A stretch of DNA of 64,000 bases from Pyrinomonadaceae bacterium. GTDB lineage: Bacteria > Acidobacteriota > Blastocatellia > Pyrinomonadales > Pyrinomonadaceae. Each line of letters begins with the position of its first letter. The stretch's first letter is position 1. The stretch is from NCBI GenBank assembly GCA_025054715.1, contig JANWYH010000001.1, positions 184,001-248,000 on the forward strand. The letters are read 5' to 3'. This document shows positions 32,628 to 37,844 of the stretch, one piece after another. The position numbers and the translations under genes are program-made. The notes under the pieces are model-generated. The model ran no database searches. It worked only from the letters and a program-made list of their open reading frames with translations, and had not been told where the DNA came from.

Positions 32628-34409
32628 TCAGGGCTTTTGAGTAGTAGGTTGAATAGCCGGTTGATTAGTAGGTTGAGTCGTTGTCATCGGAACGACAGGC
32701 AAAGTCAGTGGTTGAGTTGTTGGAGTCGTTGGTTTGGTTTGCGGAGCAGAGTTAGACTCGGGATTTCCTAAAGGAACAGGTTGGAGTATTGTAGTAGTTC
32801 TTGTTCCATCGCTTACCTTTGAAGGAAGTATATTGCCTTTCATGTCAGATCGGACTATGCGAGGAGTTATGAAGAATAATATTTCATTGCTTTGTCTAGA
32901 AACTGCTTTACGTTTGAAGAGGTTTCCTATGATAGGTATTTTTGAAAGACCCGGCGTTCTAAATAAATCTTCACCTTCTGCATCAAGCAATGCTCCACCG
33001 ACTACAGTTGTTCCACCGTCTGGAACGACGACTCTAGTTTTCATTCTTTGTGTATTAATGCCGGGAGTGCCACCGACCGCGATCGTTGTGCTAACCGTGT
33101 TATTTTCTGCTACCACGTCAAGGATAACTGTTCCGACATCAGTTATTTGCGGAGTTACCTCTAGTCTAAGTGGCACTGATACGTATTGAGTAGTGAAGAC
33201 GACTCCGCCTGCGTTTGCACCTGTTTGAGCAGTTACTACGGGAATTTGAGTTCCGCTTTCAATCTCGGCTTTTTGATTGTTTAAAGTAGTGACGCGCGGA
33301 GTAGCAATAGTTTTTGCCTGTCCTTTTCTTTCACCCATAGTAAGTAGAGCACTTATTTGTGCGGTGCCAAAGACACCTGTTGTAAGACCTATAACTGTAT
33401 TTGGAATGCTCGAAGATAGAGTATTGTCAGGTGGTATACCTAGACCTGTTGGAATTCCACGGGGATCTAAACCTGCTCTTTGGGGACCTTGCTGGCCGAT
33501 TCCACCAGTTCCAGTTCCACCGGTTCCAGTCCCCCCGCCGGTTCCAGTTCCACCAGTTCCAGTCCCCCCGCCGGTTCCGCCAGTTCCGCCAGTTCCGGTT
33601 GCCGCCGTGCCGGGAAGTGTTGAAAGCGAACCGGCGCTTCCGCGTTCACCTAAGACTACAGCAGCAAGCTGAAAGCCTAAATCTCGGCTAAAGTTTCTAT
33701 TAGCTGCTACTATGCGCACCTCGATTTCAACCTGTGGCTCGGGTTGATCGAGAAGTGCTACCAATTGGCGTATAGCATCAATATTTTCTCTTACATCTGT
33801 GACTATGAGAGTATTGCTTCTAGAGTCAACTTCTACAGAGCCACGTTTTGAAAGACGCTTCTTTACGATTCCTAGAATACCTTGATCTTCACCGCCGCCG
33901 CCACCGCCACTGATAACGCCTCCTTTGAAGCTAGTTTGAGAGGCACAAGAGCCAGCACAAGCGTAGTTTAGTCGAATAAACTCAGTAAAGAGCGGTGATG
34001 CTTCTAACTGACCTTCTCTGATTTTTGCTTCTATGGAAGCTTCATCAGCAAGAGTCTTGCGTTCGGCTATGCGTATTATAGGACCGTTTACCTGTGCTCC
34101 TAAGTCTTGTGACTGCAGGATTGAGTCAAGGGCAATATTCCAAGGAACATCGGTTATATTAACTGTTACGGGAACACTTTTTACGGATTTGTCAATTATG
34201 AAGTTAACTCCATATTGTTCGCTTATATAGTTCAATATGTCACGAATGTCAGCATTGACAACATTTAGGCTAATTGGTTCACCACGAAAACCGGGATCGC
34301 CGTAGCGCTTTCCTTCTTGCTGTGGTGCTACTCTTTGTGCCGATACGAAAGTAGTTGAAAGCACAAAAACTAGAGTCAAACAAAGTGCTTTAGCGTTTCT
34401 AAAAATCAT
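32628..34409 (-). CDS. pilQ: Type IV pilus secretin PilQ
   Basis: 593-aa outer-membrane secretin through which the pilus passes. A signal peptide (ending FVSAQ) is followed by an STN-like domain, ISLNVVNADIRDILNYISEQ to about residue 115, then an N-domain with NTLIVTDVRENIDAIRQLVALLDQPEP. The secretin core begins near VEIEVRIVAANRNFSRDLG and contains VVPDGGTTVVGG and a KIPIIGNLFKRKAVSR signature. Between about residues 260 and 308 sits a Gly/Thr-rich linker encoded by tandem DNA repeats. The C-terminus is a Pro/Thr tail of about 50 residues. There is no AMIN domain I can recognise. Last pil gene of pilMNOPQ. Confidence 0.93.
   Translation of the reverse strand: MIFRNAKALCLTLVFVLSTTFVSAQRVAPQQEGKRYGDPGFRGEPISLNVVNADIRDILNYISEQYGVNFIIDKSVKSVPVTVNITDVPWNIALDSILQSQDLGAQVNGPIIRIAERKTLADEASIEAKIREGQLEASPLFTEFIRLNYACAGSCASQTSFKGGVISGGGGGGEDQGILGIVKKRLSKRGSVEVDSRSNTLIVTDVRENIDAIRQLVALLDQPEPQVEIEVRIVAANRNFSRDLGFQLAAVVLGERGSAGSLSTLPGTAATGTGGTGGTGGGTGTGGTGTGGGTGTGGTGTGGIGQQGPQRAGLDPRGIPTGLGIPPDNTLSSSIPNTVIGLTTGVFGTAQISALLTMGERKGQAKTIATPRVTTLNNQKAEIESGTQIPVVTAQTGANAGGVVFTTQYVSVPLRLEVTPQITDVGTVILDVVAENNTVSTTIAVGGTPGINTQRMKTRVVVPDGGTTVVGGALLDAEGEDLFRTPGLSKIPIIGNLFKRKAVSRQSNEILFFITPRIVRSDMKGNILPSKVSDGTRTTTILQPVPLGNPESNSAPQTKPTTPTTQPLTLPVVPMTTTQPTNQPAIQPTTQKP
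33513..33578. repeat. 33-bp tandem repeat in pilQ
   Basis: Two head-to-tail 33-bp units (33513-33545, 33546-33578) differ at one base. They encode 11-residue Gly/Thr units of the PilQ linker; related shorter units extend on both sides, roughly 33495-33605. The reading frame is preserved because the unit is a multiple of 3. Confidence 0.85.
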
Positions 34410-34421
34410 AATCTCCTCCTA

Positions 34422-35132
34422 TTAAGGTTTCTTGTTTTTTTTGCTAGAACTTTTTTTATCGGTATTTTCTAGATTTTCCGGTTTTTTATTTAACATCTCT
34501 TCGAGCGGAGAAACTATTTTTTCCGGTGTAGTTTTAGTTTCTTGGTCCTTTGGCTCTTTGTTTACTCCAGCTGTTTGCTCTTCAGATTGTGTTTTTGCAG
34601 TGGTTTCTGTCGGAACGGTTCCAGCTAGTTCCTGTTCAAGAGAATATTTTCTTAGTGGTTTTGTCTCTTCTGAAGAGATAAATTTACCATTTGTAAACTT
34701 TGTTACCCGACGAAAAACTAATCTATTTTCTTCGACTGCGACAAGCTGGCCGTCGAAGAATTTTTCACCCGGATAGATTGTGTAAGACAGCTTGATGGGA
34801 GTTGCTTCTACGATAGCAGCATAGCCGCGTGGAGTTTTGAATATACCTGTTACGACAAGTTCATCCAAGGTTAAAACTGTTGTGACTTTTGGGATTGGTT
34901 GATTATTTAGAACAGCGTTTTCACGGAGTCTTCTATAATATTCGATTCTTTGTTGAATAGAAGGCGGTGCGACGGGTGAAGGTCCAGATTTTACTGTTCT
35001 GCCACTACCTGAAGGTGATGAAGTTTTAGGTTTAGCCCAGGCTGGTTTTGCGAATGGGTCGCGTGTTTGGGCTTCAGACATCGAAAAGCCAAAAAGTAGC
35101 AAGAATAACAAGATGCAAACTTTTTTTTCCAT
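34422..35132 (-). CDS. pilP: Type IV pilus assembly protein PilP
   Basis: 236-aa protein with an N-terminal signal sequence ending MSEAQ; no lipobox Cys is seen, unlike classical PilP lipoproteins. The core (about residues 85-160) carries LDELVVTGIFKTPRGYAAIVEA, the beta-sandwich domain that bridges PilNO to PilQ. A disordered, charged tail (KEPKDQETKTTPEK to KKSSSKKNKKP) follows. It lies between pilO and pilQ with short gaps, which supports the name where similarity is low. Confidence 0.82.
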   Translation of the reverse strand: MEKKVCILLFLLLFGFSMSEAQTRDPFAKPAWAKPKTSSPSGSGRTVKSGPSPVAPPSIQQRIEYYRRLRENAVLNNQPIPKVTTVLTLDELVVTGIFKTPRGYAAIVEATPIKLSYTIYPGEKFFDGQLVAVEENRLVFRRVTKFTNGKFISSEETKPLRKYSLEQELAGTVPTETTAKTQSEEQTAGVNKEPKDQETKTTPEKIVSPLEEMLNKKPENLENTDKKSSSKKNKKP

Positions 35133-35153: not shown

Positions 35154-35828
35154 TTATTTTGCTAAAGGTGGTGCCGCTGGCGGAGCCTGTCCTGGTGGCG
35201 GTGGCGGCACCGGCACTTTTGGATTGGCCGGATTTTGACCTGGCGCTTGTTGAGATAGATTTTCAGGTGCTGCGTAGTAAGCCGTCAATAAGAATTGGGC
35301 ATGTAAGGTTCTGTCAGGTGTTTGCTCTTGAAGTTGTCTCAAGCTGAAGTCAGTTATTGAAACAATACGCGGTAGTTTTGCCATTCTATCAAAGAAAACT
35401 CTTAGATTATTGAAGTTGCTATCGACTTCGACTTCGACGGGTTTTGCCATGATGCCTTCTTGTTGGACGTCTTCTCTAGGGCTAAATCTCATGACTATAA
35501 GTTTGCTTTCGCGAGCCGTATCTTGTAAGCCTTGGAGGACGTTCGTAATTTCGCGTTCCTCAGGTAATAACACCTTTAACTCTTCATACTCGGCTTGTTT
35601 GCTTGCGTAGAGGGCGCGGAATTCGTTTATTCTTTGCGTAGCTATTTGTGCTGCTTGGTTTTTTGCTTTTAACTGCTCGATTTGTTCGTTTAAAGAGGAG
35701 ATTTCAGCTCTTGTTTCCGAAGTAATGAAGTAGTAAGCCAGAAACCAGAAAAAGGCTCCTACGACTACTAGAACTAAAAGTTGCCAATACCATTCAAGAC
35801 TTTTTAATCTTTCTATCATAGTTTTCAC
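35154..35828 (-). CDS. pilO: Type IV pilus assembly protein PilO
   Basis: 224-aa inner-membrane protein with one TM helix at about residues 14-34 (WQLLVLVVVGAFFWFLAYYF), a coiled coil at 35-75, and a ferredoxin-like periplasmic domain (LPEEREITNVLQGLQDTARES; KPVEVEVDSNFNNLRVFFDRMAKLPRIVSI). The C-terminal tail is Pro/Ala rich. PilO pairs with PilN to form the alignment subcomplex. It follows pilN after 1 nt. Confidence 0.9.
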   Translation of the reverse strand: MKTMIERLKSLEWYWQLLVLVVVGAFFWFLAYYFITSETRAEISSLNEQIEQLKAKNQAAQIATQRINEFRALYASKQAEYEELKVLLPEEREITNVLQGLQDTARESKLIVMRFSPREDVQQEGIMAKPVEVEVDSNFNNLRVFFDRMAKLPRIVSITDFSLRQLQEQTPDRTLHAQFLLTAYYAAPENLSQQAPGQNPANPKVPVPPPPPGQAPPAAPPLAK

Positions 35829-35829
35829 C

Positions 35830-36513
35830 TCAGTTTCTTGCTATCTGTCCTGGTTGGGAAACGCTAGCCTGCTGAGTTTGTTGATCAGAAGGCTTTTTAG
35901 AAGGATTGTAATTTGTGCGAATGGTAAATTCGACTATATCTATTTTCGCTGCACTTTGGTTTTCGGCTGCTGTTTGAACAGCTTGATTTTCTTTTCTTTG
36001 GGTTTCGATGTTCAGATTCGTGAAGAGACCCGAAGAAAACTCGAGGCTTCTACCAAACTGAGTTACCATATTTTCGTTTGGTGAATAACCTTTGATGGTA
36101 ACTACATCACCTTTCTGCTCAATGCTTTCCAAGTAAAGTTGTGGTAGCATAGCAAATCTTTCTCTTATTGCCTCGAGAACGGCACTCGGACCTGCCTGAG
36201 TTGATCTGAGTCGTTTGATTGCTTCAACGCGGGTGTCTATATTCTTTATCTTTTCTTCCAATTCTTTTTGTTCCTTAATTATTGCTTCGAGTTGAGCAGC
36301 GATTTTTCGTTGCTCTTCAAGTTGACGTTCTGCTTCAGCTTTTGCCATTTGTGTAGAAATTATGTCCCAGCCAATAAAGAGAACTGTAAGTGCAGCTACC
36401 ACTATTGACATGACTATAAGTCTCGATGCAGGGCTTGCTACCTTTTTTTCGACAGCTATGACAGGTGAGCTTTGACGTTCAGTTACCGATTCTAAAAGAT
36501 TTATCTTTATCAT
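35830..36513 (-). CDS. pilN: Type IV pilus assembly protein PilN
   Basis: 227-aa bitopic protein. It starts MIKINLLES, the conserved PilN cytoplasmic segment that binds PilM (usual form INLLP). A TM helix lies at about residues 32-50, then a coiled coil (KAEAERQLEEQRKIAAQLEAI) and a fimbrial-assembly domain ending in TQFGRSLEFSSGLFTNLNIET. Three nt separate it from pilM. Confidence 0.93.
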   Translation of the reverse strand: MIKINLLESVTERQSSPVIAVEKKVASPASRLIVMSIVVAALTVLFIGWDIISTQMAKAEAERQLEEQRKIAAQLEAIIKEQKELEEKIKNIDTRVEAIKRLRSTQAGPSAVLEAIRERFAMLPQLYLESIEQKGDVVTIKGYSPNENMVTQFGRSLEFSSGLFTNLNIETQRKENQAVQTAAENQSAAKIDIVEFTIRTNYNPSKKPSDQQTQQASVSQPGQIARN

Positions 36514-36516
36514 ACA

Positions 36517-37569
36517 CTAAACCCCTCTTATTGCTAATCCGACGGCTAGAGCCATTTCAGGCATTATTTCGCTTAAGTAGTCGGGATCAAACTTTTTCGT
36601 ATTAACTTTAATTTGGCGAAAAGGATCTAATACTTCCACAGGAAGTTCTAGTTTAGAAGATAGATATTCAGGAAGCCGTGCTAGCTTTGAACCTCCGCCT
36701 GAAATCAAAATTTTTTGGACATTAGTATTGTATCCTTCTTCCGAAGCGCGGAAAAAGTCAAAAGTTCTCTGAATTTCCATGGCAAGATATTCCATTGTAG
36801 GTTCAAGCAGATTCAAAATGGTTTGCTCATCGAAACCTTGAGATTGATTTCTGACTCCTCTTTTTATTGCTTCTGCTTGTTGAAAGCTTATGCCCAAGCC
36901 TTTCTGCAAAGCATCTGTGAATTGATTTCCACCCATTGTAATATCTCTCATAAAAAGAGAGGTTACACCACGAACGATATTTACATTTGTTGTTGAAGCT
37001 CCTATGTTCAGAAGGGCTACTACATCTGTTTCGTATGGCTGATAATTTACTTCATAGCAGTTTTGTAAAGCAAATGTATCAACGTCTATGGCAGAAGGTT
37101 GTTTCCCAGCAAATTGTATAGCCTGTTTTAGTATTTCGATTCTTTCTTTTCTGCAGGCTGCAATCAGAACCTTCGTATATTCGGGTGTTTGCTCTGTGAT
37201 ATGATAATCAAAATTTACTTCTGATGATCTAAATCCTAGTTGTTCTTCGGCATGCCAAACTATTGATTCTTCTAATTCCTCCTGACTCATCGGTGGTAAG
37301 ACTATTGTTTTTACTATTACTGAGTATCCACTTACGCCAGTAATTACTTGATCAGCTTTTATTTGATTTGTCTGAAAAGCGCTTTGAATGGCTTCGGCTA
37401 CAGTGTTAAGCTCCATTATCTGCCCTTCCACGATTGCCGTGTCAGGTAAGTTTTCGTAACCTATCCCTACAAGATTCAAATTATTAAGCTTGCCTTCGAG
37501 TTCTACTAACTTTATCGAGCTAGAGCCTATATCTAGTCCAGCAACGCTTTTCTTTTTACCAAATAACAT
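36517..37569 (-). CDS. pilM: Type IV pilus assembly ATPase-fold protein PilM
   Basis: 350-aa actin-like protein that recruits PilN to the cytoplasmic face. LFGKKKSVAGLDIGSSSIKLVEL is the phosphate-1 region; GASTTNVNIVRG and LISGGGSKLARLPEYL are the phosphate-2 and adenosine motifs. Full length for the family. First gene of the operon; AAAGGAG lies 9 nt before the ATG, behind a long structured leader. Confidence 0.95.
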   Translation of the reverse strand: MLFGKKKSVAGLDIGSSSIKLVELEGKLNNLNLVGIGYENLPDTAIVEGQIMELNTVAEAIQSAFQTNQIKADQVITGVSGYSVIVKTIVLPPMSQEELEESIVWHAEEQLGFRSSEVNFDYHITEQTPEYTKVLIAACRKERIEILKQAIQFAGKQPSAIDVDTFALQNCYEVNYQPYETDVVALLNIGASTTNVNIVRGVTSLFMRDITMGGNQFTDALQKGLGISFQQAEAIKRGVRNQSQGFDEQTILNLLEPTMEYLAMEIQRTFDFFRASEEGYNTNVQKILISGGGSKLARLPEYLSSKLELPVEVLDPFRQIKVNTKKFDPDYLSEIMPEMALAVGLAIRGV

Positions 37570-37735
37570 TACTTCTTACTCCTTTTTTAGAAAACGAAAT
37601 GAGTGCCTCAAGTTCTTTCTGGGGATGGGTTGCCGCCTTGAAAGTTGCAGCAAGTTCCAGAAAGGGGTTTTCGAGCGGGACACTAACATCGAACCGAGAC
37701 ACCCATTTCGCTTTTTGTTCCGACGAGCTAAGCAT
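37556..37735 (-). CDS. Possible 59-aa ORF inside the pilM leader
   Basis: An ATG at 37735 opens 59 codons that cover the structured leader and overlap the pilM start by 14 nt. The product would be charged and soluble, with ENPFLELAATF and HPQKELEALISF stretches. Much of the frame is base-paired RNA, and the opposite strand is also open, so the ORF may be a by-product of structure. If translated, ribosomes would disrupt the fold, giving a leader-ORF type of control. No similarity is recognised. Confidence 0.2.
   Translation of the reverse strand: MLSSSEQKAKWVSRFDVSVPLENPFLELAATFKAATHPQKELEALISFSKKGVRSNVIW
37595..37710 (-). ncRNA. Three-way-junction RNA in the pilM leader (candidate cis-regulatory RNA)
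   Basis: Read on the minus strand, P1 is 15 uninterrupted pairs (37710-37696 with 37609-37595, two G-U). P2 starts with no gap (37695-37689 with 37674-37666, a 2-nt bulge). One nt later P3 is 8 perfect pairs (37664-37657 with 37622-37615), capped by P3b of 7 pairs (37653-37647 with 37636-37630). Five nt join P3 to P1. The element ends 25 nt before the pilM start, just ahead of its ribosome binding site. I do not see the conserved bases of c-di-GMP-I, c-di-GMP-II or other classes I know. Strong structure is seen directly; riboswitch function is inference. Confidence 0.6.
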
Positions 37736-37765
37736 TGACGACCTACTTGCTGGCAATCTCAGAAT

Positions 37766-37809
37766 GTTTCAAGGCGACGTGAAACGCAACCGTATTTTTC
37801 AACGATTGC
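37766..37809 (-). promoter_or_regulatory. 5'-end hairpins of the pilM leader
   Basis: The predicted transcript begins with a 7-bp hairpin (37809-37803 with 37792-37786), immediately followed by a 5-bp hairpin (37785-37781 with 37770-37766). The first begins at the expected transcription start and could protect the mRNA 5' end. Confidence 0.4.
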
Positions 37810-37815
37810 AAAAAT

Positions 37816-37844
37816 AAACTACAACATTGTTAAAATCTTGTCAA
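37816..37844 (-). promoter_or_regulatory. Promoter of pilMNOPQ
   Basis: Consensus -35 TTGACA (37844-37839), a 17-nt spacer and TAGTTT (37821-37816). The start near 37809 gives a 240-nt leader before the pilM ATG at 37569. No other gene lies between. Confidence 0.6.

Follow-up and report, generated by a model that had tools for sequence, protein, structure and literature searches.

The pilM operon of Geobacter metallireducens is controlled by a c-GAMP riboswitch that acts as an ON switch (PMC9262584), and control of the pilM operon by a nucleotide-sensing leader therefore has precedent. In sister genera of the lineage considered here, within the same family, riboswitches of the c-di-GMP-I type lie between the promoter and pilM, exactly where the RNA described below is found, and c-di-GMP-I also occurs at pilM in one genome of another family (L114). 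Other leaders of the sister group carry neither c-di-GMP-I nor the new RNA.

The window analysed here, a stretch of 64,000 nucleotides from the genome of a Pyrinomonadaceae bacterium, contains a pilMNOPQ operon preceded by a 275-nt stretch with promoter and leader. The features of leader and operon, in the direction of transcription, are as follows:

37839..37844, minus strand: -35 box TTGACA, in the same place in 57 of 57 clade leaders
37816..37821, minus strand: -10 box TAGTTT, within the conserved TGTA(A/G)(T)TTT
37786..37809, minus strand: H0, a hairpin where the transcript presumably starts, folding in 57 of 57 leaders
37770..37776, minus strand: motif a, CGCCUUG (consensus CGCCACC), 5' strand of the pseudoknot
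37697..37712, minus strand: 5' arm of helix P1, from arm swaps, covariation and the covariance model
37664..37683, minus strand: inner-loop stretch with near-invariant unpaired C residues, from the alignment consensus
37657..37664, minus strand: 5' arm of P3 of the preliminary description, in the window's genus only
37647..37653, minus strand: 5' arm of P3b of the preliminary description, an alternative partner of a'
37634..37640, minus strand: motif a', CAAGGCG (consensus GGUGGC), 3' strand of the pseudoknot, inside P1
37630..37636, minus strand: 3' arm of P3b, overlapping a'
37615..37622, minus strand: 3' arm of P3
37592..37609, minus strand: 3' arm of P1, from the same evidence as the 5' arm
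37579..37585, minus strand: Shine-Dalgarno sequence AAAGGAG, of the AGGAG type found in 57 of 57 leaders
36517..37569, minus strand: pilM, first gene of the operon (PF11104, E 2.7e-66)
35830..36513, minus strand: pilN (PF05137)
35154..35828, minus strand: pilO (PF04350)
34422..35132, minus strand: putative pilP, from its position and without a Pfam match
32628..34409, minus strand: pilQ secretin (PF00263)

The leader lies directly upstream of pilM, in the position of a leader of a pilus gene, on the same strand, between the promoter and the first gene of the operon and with no terminator between them, which is the arrangement of a cis-acting leader. The 275-nt stretch folds at -80.1 kcal/mol compared with -65.4 (sd 4.4) for shuffled sequences (z -3.33), and none of 200 shuffles was as low as the native sequence. 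The promoter reported in the preliminary description is present, with a spacing of 17 nt between TTGACA (37844-37839) and TAGTTT (37821-37816) on the minus strand of the window, and the combination of TTGACA and the TGTA(A/G)(T)TTT box recurs at near-constant spacing in the 57 relatives. A strict consensus promoter scan of the window leader did not call this site because its -10 box is weak. At the other end of the operon, a gene for a Roadblock/LC7 protein (PF03259, 32255-32620, minus strand), a family that includes MglB-type polarity regulators, directly follows pilQ, and the PilQ secretin itself (32628-34409, minus strand) contains a long Gly/Thr-rich repeat stretch at 33470-33660.

For comparison, pilM could be placed in 47 of 60 relatives and, family-wide, in 108 of 119 genomes, and upstream regions were fetched; genomes with a pilM at least about 64% identical to that of the window make up the set of 57 leaders. 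These leaders, roughly 240-300 nt long in this clade, share one plan: TTGACA, TGTA(A/G)(T)TTT, H0, motif a, a variable stretch and the 5' arm of P1, followed by a loop with conserved C-rich stretches, motif a', the 3' arm of P1, AGGAG and AUG. Motif a (UCGCCACC) lies about 62 nt past the -35 box and motif a' (GGUGGCAAA) about 150 nt downstream of motif a, each in 57 of 57 leaders. H0, which in the window reads GCAAUCGU...ACGGUUGC, had already been seen as a hairpin at the predicted start; across the 57 leaders it occurs in 52 distinct sequences with a mean z of -2.7.

The strongest sequence conservation upstream lies around and overlapping the -35 box, where clade leaders such as L007 and L008 carry GTTNAACA...AAANA..TGTTGACA. 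This element, which looks like an operator or UP element, is partly present in sister genera also, and its GTTNAAC half is lost in the window's own copy.

Helix P1 (GCGAAAUGGGUGUC.../...GGCACUCAUUUCG in the window) carries much of the evidence for a conserved RNA. RNAalifold, applied to MAFFT core alignments, gave little or no structure, because P1 is rewritten between genomes and its 3' arm is misaligned; the remedy was to anchor on a and a', to swap arms between genomes and to use a covariance model. Cognate arms pair at a mean of -25.2 kcal/mol, compared with -15.9 for arms swapped between genomes. In the MAFFT alignment of 19 leaders, both sides are changed in 10 of 13 pairs, and in a model-fitted alignment of 51 leaders double changes occur at all 13 modelled pairs, with 158 doubly changed cells compared with 59 in shuffles and a covariation score of 0.578 compared with at most 0.141 for slid partners. 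This larger alignment, being fitted to the model, leans towards structure, while the arm-swap test uses no alignment of P1. Cognate pairing and covariation thus bear out the P1 of the preliminary description, and relatives show strong covariation, the lack of which that description had named as grounds for giving up the RNA. P1 encloses a' in 51 of the 57 leaders, and the distance from its end to the AUG is 20 nt in the window and usually 45-65 nt in relatives. Within the g9 subclade, L057, L065, L067, L068 and L070 are without a recognisable P1, and that of L066 is weak; all six retain the promoter, H0 and motif a, each carries a mismatch in a:a', and they possibly reflect decay or a changed structure.

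A second long-range helix, overlooked in the preliminary description, joins motif a to motif a'. These motifs pair in 331 of 342 cells (three leaders having been re-anchored by hand), and sliding the motifs against each other lowers the paired fraction from 95% to 59% or less. The double changes (C-G to U-A, A-U to G-C, A-U to U-A and C-G to G-C) arose in at least five lineages (L002/L003, L004, L009, L048 and L073), which are not grouped on the PilM tree where tested, L048 being absent from that tree and L073 being represented by L148, beside L013. Motif a precedes P1 whereas a' is enclosed by it, which makes the a:a' helix a pseudoknot across P1, and the two helices together are shown, on comparative grounds, to make up a large predicted pseudoknot of the H type. 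In the window, part of a' is also used by P3b (UUGCUGC/GCGGCAA), and because of these shared bases the full P3b and the full a:a' are mutually exclusive; the calculated energies are -8.8 kcal/mol for a' in P3b and -10.1 kcal/mol for a:a'.

The other inner elements are less widely shared. All parts of the three-way junction first proposed for this leader are found in the window sequence, and P1 is conserved, but P2, P3 and P3b are of genus level at best. For P2 (UUGAC/GUCAA) no cognate preference was found across leaders, with two doubly changed pairs on the MAFFT alignment, and none was found for P3 (CUUUCUGG/CCAGAAAG in the window) or for the stem flanking a'. A C.A mismatch interrupts P3 even in the sister species L003, where P3b can form only with a bulge. 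A possible P0, pairing AGUUUUC after a with GAAAACU after P1, is visible in many leaders and weak on average. The 5-bp hairpin described after H0 (GUUUC/GAAAC) is indeed present in the window and holds motif a in its loop; more generally, small hairpins of many kinds, with at least three enclosing pairs, surround a in 47 of the 57 leaders, and such a hairpin is a possible alternative state. The loop of P1 has the family consensus UCAGUU-G-CCU-UC...CC...C, and its near-invariant unpaired C residues are shown by the alignment to belong to the conserved, predicted RNA. The conserved architecture, as far as sequence comparison can define it, is therefore a 5' hairpin with a long P1 and the a:a' pseudoknot, not a three-way junction.

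A covariance model of the P1 domain (R1), built from 19 leaders with the window's genus left out, finds the window at 37707-37596 with an E value of 4.5e-5. It also finds L003 (E 0.008) and 49 other leaders, of which one reaches no better than E 0.4, and it has no matches in sister-clade leaders. Run against 60 relatives and against 396 genomes from the phylum, R1 returns the pilM leaders of this clade plus scattered matches at chance level; three distant matches with E values of 0.002-0.004 among the 396 genomes are what chance gives. Neither the genomes that carry the RNA nor the rest of the phylum (396 genomes) yielded a second copy, and these searches show the predicted RNA to be a single-locus, lineage-restricted element that occurs before pilM only, once per genome. 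A single change accounts for the new RNA on the PilM tree, where its clade has an SH-aLRT value of 100.

On the same tree c-di-GMP-I is scattered over the sister group with several losses. It is plausible that the ancestor had c-di-GMP-I at pilM, a point left unproven because change counts do not root the state. Many genomes of the clade retain one c-di-GMP-I element away from pilM, so the clade has not lost c-di-GMP signalling, and the window's genome encodes nine GGDEF domains. In that genome a c-di-GMP-I-GGC element (G000:C11:496922-496997, plus strand; L102:423-498) ends at the start of a gene for a CAP (PF00188) secreted protein, and in six other clade genomes inspected (L103-L108) a similar CAP gene, followed by ispE, adjoins the c-di-GMP-I element.

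The sister group offers further observations. The same promoter type occurs with no recognised riboswitch before pilM in L018-L020, L023, L077, L079, L080, L082-L084 and L087, while L086 has by eye what looks like a decayed c-di-GMP-I element, no longer detected by Rfam. A short conserved Arg-rich ORF (...SRARKARMRLRQLHRRR... / ...RALKARARLRQQHRMR...) ends right at pilM in sister-clade leaders, including L014, L018, L019, L077-L081 and others, and was not seen in the window's clade; it is a putative leader peptide or small protein.

The leader RNA very likely has a cis-regulatory function, judging from its conservation and position. The reading that we favour as probable is that of a clade-specific cis-regulatory RNA of pilMNOPQ, a riboswitch-like pseudoknot sensor standing in for c-di-GMP-I; that it senses a small molecule has about an even chance. 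It is common for aptamers to be pseudoknots in which distant motifs close the fold and loop bases are invariant. Under the proposed mechanism, the RNA would sense something, and a bound ligand would stabilise a:a' against a local alternative, with a held by a small hairpin of its own and the window's a' taken up by P3b, giving two states. The fold set by the ligand would then change expression of pilMNOPQ in cis, the part that the c-di-GMP-I riboswitch plays in relatives, and a cyclic dinucleotide would be the first candidate ligand. Because the RNA always precedes the same operon, gene context is little guide to the ligand. We entertain more tentatively, and think somewhat doubtful, a bolder form of this reading, namely a new pseudoknotted riboswitch class, possibly for a cyclic dinucleotide, with a single origin in Acidobacteriota and replacing c-di-GMP-I at pilMNOPQ.

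It is also conceivable, if unlikely, that a global RNA-binding protein, or one belonging to the pilus system, recognises the pseudoknot and C-rich loop, for autoregulation of pilMNOPQ. Autoregulatory leaders are typically tied, as this RNA strictly is, to one operon with one copy per genome, and the near-invariant unpaired residues (CC..UC..CC...C) would suit a binding site; against this, sister genera use a small-molecule aptamer at the same site, and no candidate protein has been identified.

A purely structural role, in which H0 and the pseudoknot shield the 5' end or set the pace of transcription or of ribosome loading with no sensor involved, seems to us quite improbable. It would account for the presence, in every member, of H0 where transcription is predicted to begin and for the lack of a visible expression platform: a scan of the window leader finds no intrinsic terminator, and pairing of the Shine-Dalgarno sequence with upstream segments shows no cognate preference across leaders. 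P1 was considered as an intrinsic terminator, its 3' arm being U-rich in some members, and was rejected on a loop of more than 80 nt and the negative scan. A 5' stabiliser, however, could do without a conserved pseudoknot over a long range and without near-invariant bases in the loop.

That the RNA is a diverged c-di-GMP-I (GEMM) aptamer, and its fold not new, is very improbable, even though its position equals that of GEMM in sister genera. At the gathering score, Rfam 15 finds three tRNAs only in the whole window and nothing in the leader, where relaxed thresholds add only chance-level matches. The c-di-GMP-I models (RF01051/RF03167/RF03168) have no match in the window leader at E<=5 or in leaders L003-L013 at E<=2, whereas sister leaders score 44-60 bits to GEMM; moreover, the new RNA has pseudoknot topology where GEMM has a three-way junction, and neither P1 nor the span from a to a' has a GEMM counterpart. 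The preliminary description had seen neither c-di-GMP-I nor c-di-GMP-II here and had suggested a new cis-regulatory RNA, with an Rfam search as the check; that search, now run, matched no known class and supports the suggestion. The leader RNA fits no Rfam family and is best described as a structured cis-regulatory leader, a known kind of RNA, among which it forms a new family with a fold of its own.

A trans-acting small RNA sharing the pilM promoter is likewise hardly probable: its compactness, extensive folding and 5' hairpin would suit such an RNA, but it reads straight into the pilM Shine-Dalgarno sequence in all members, with no terminator between, and is never found apart from pilM. Protein coding, the other explanation of conservation that the preliminary description had raised, was rejected and is opposed by non-triplet length differences of 1-2 nt between close relatives (L039/L040, L074/L075); the longest ORF per leader has a median of 40 aa, and no shared ORF was seen by eye. 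Chance structure in an intergenic stretch, whose likelihood is negligible, is refuted by the covariation and the hold-out detection.

The pilM site of these bacteria is a natural experiment, in which genus groups carry a c-di-GMP riboswitch, nothing recognised or an unrelated pseudoknot. If the new RNA binds the same or a related signal, this would be an instance of a riboswitch standing in, at one site, for a riboswitch with a different fold; if its ligand is something else, the RNA would reveal that type IV pilus assembly has a new input.

Among known systems, c-di-GMP-I (RF01051, with the GGC and UAU variants RF03167 and RF03168) is alike in placing a structured aptamer between promoter and pilM in sister genera, some of which also have a similar upstream promoter. 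It differs in being a three-way junction of ~80-90 nt, compared with an H-type pseudoknot of more than 150 nt, in having no sequence or covariance-model match to the new RNA, and in the small Arg-rich ORF of the sister leaders. The c-di-GMP-II riboswitch (RF01786) is also a pseudoknot. It has another size and other conserved bases, and is absent from the relaxed-threshold matches in the new RNA. The c-GAMP (GEMM-Ib) riboswitch of G. metallireducens is likewise a leader RNA before the pilM operon, under control by a cyclic dinucleotide, but it combines a GEMM fold with an intrinsic terminator platform, neither of which is seen in the new RNA (PMC9262584). Finally, the main text of the surveys PMC2864571, PMC11109978 and PMC8632094 contains no pil-linked motif, and the orphan riboswitch candidates presented there share with the new RNA a conserved structure and a consistent downstream gene.
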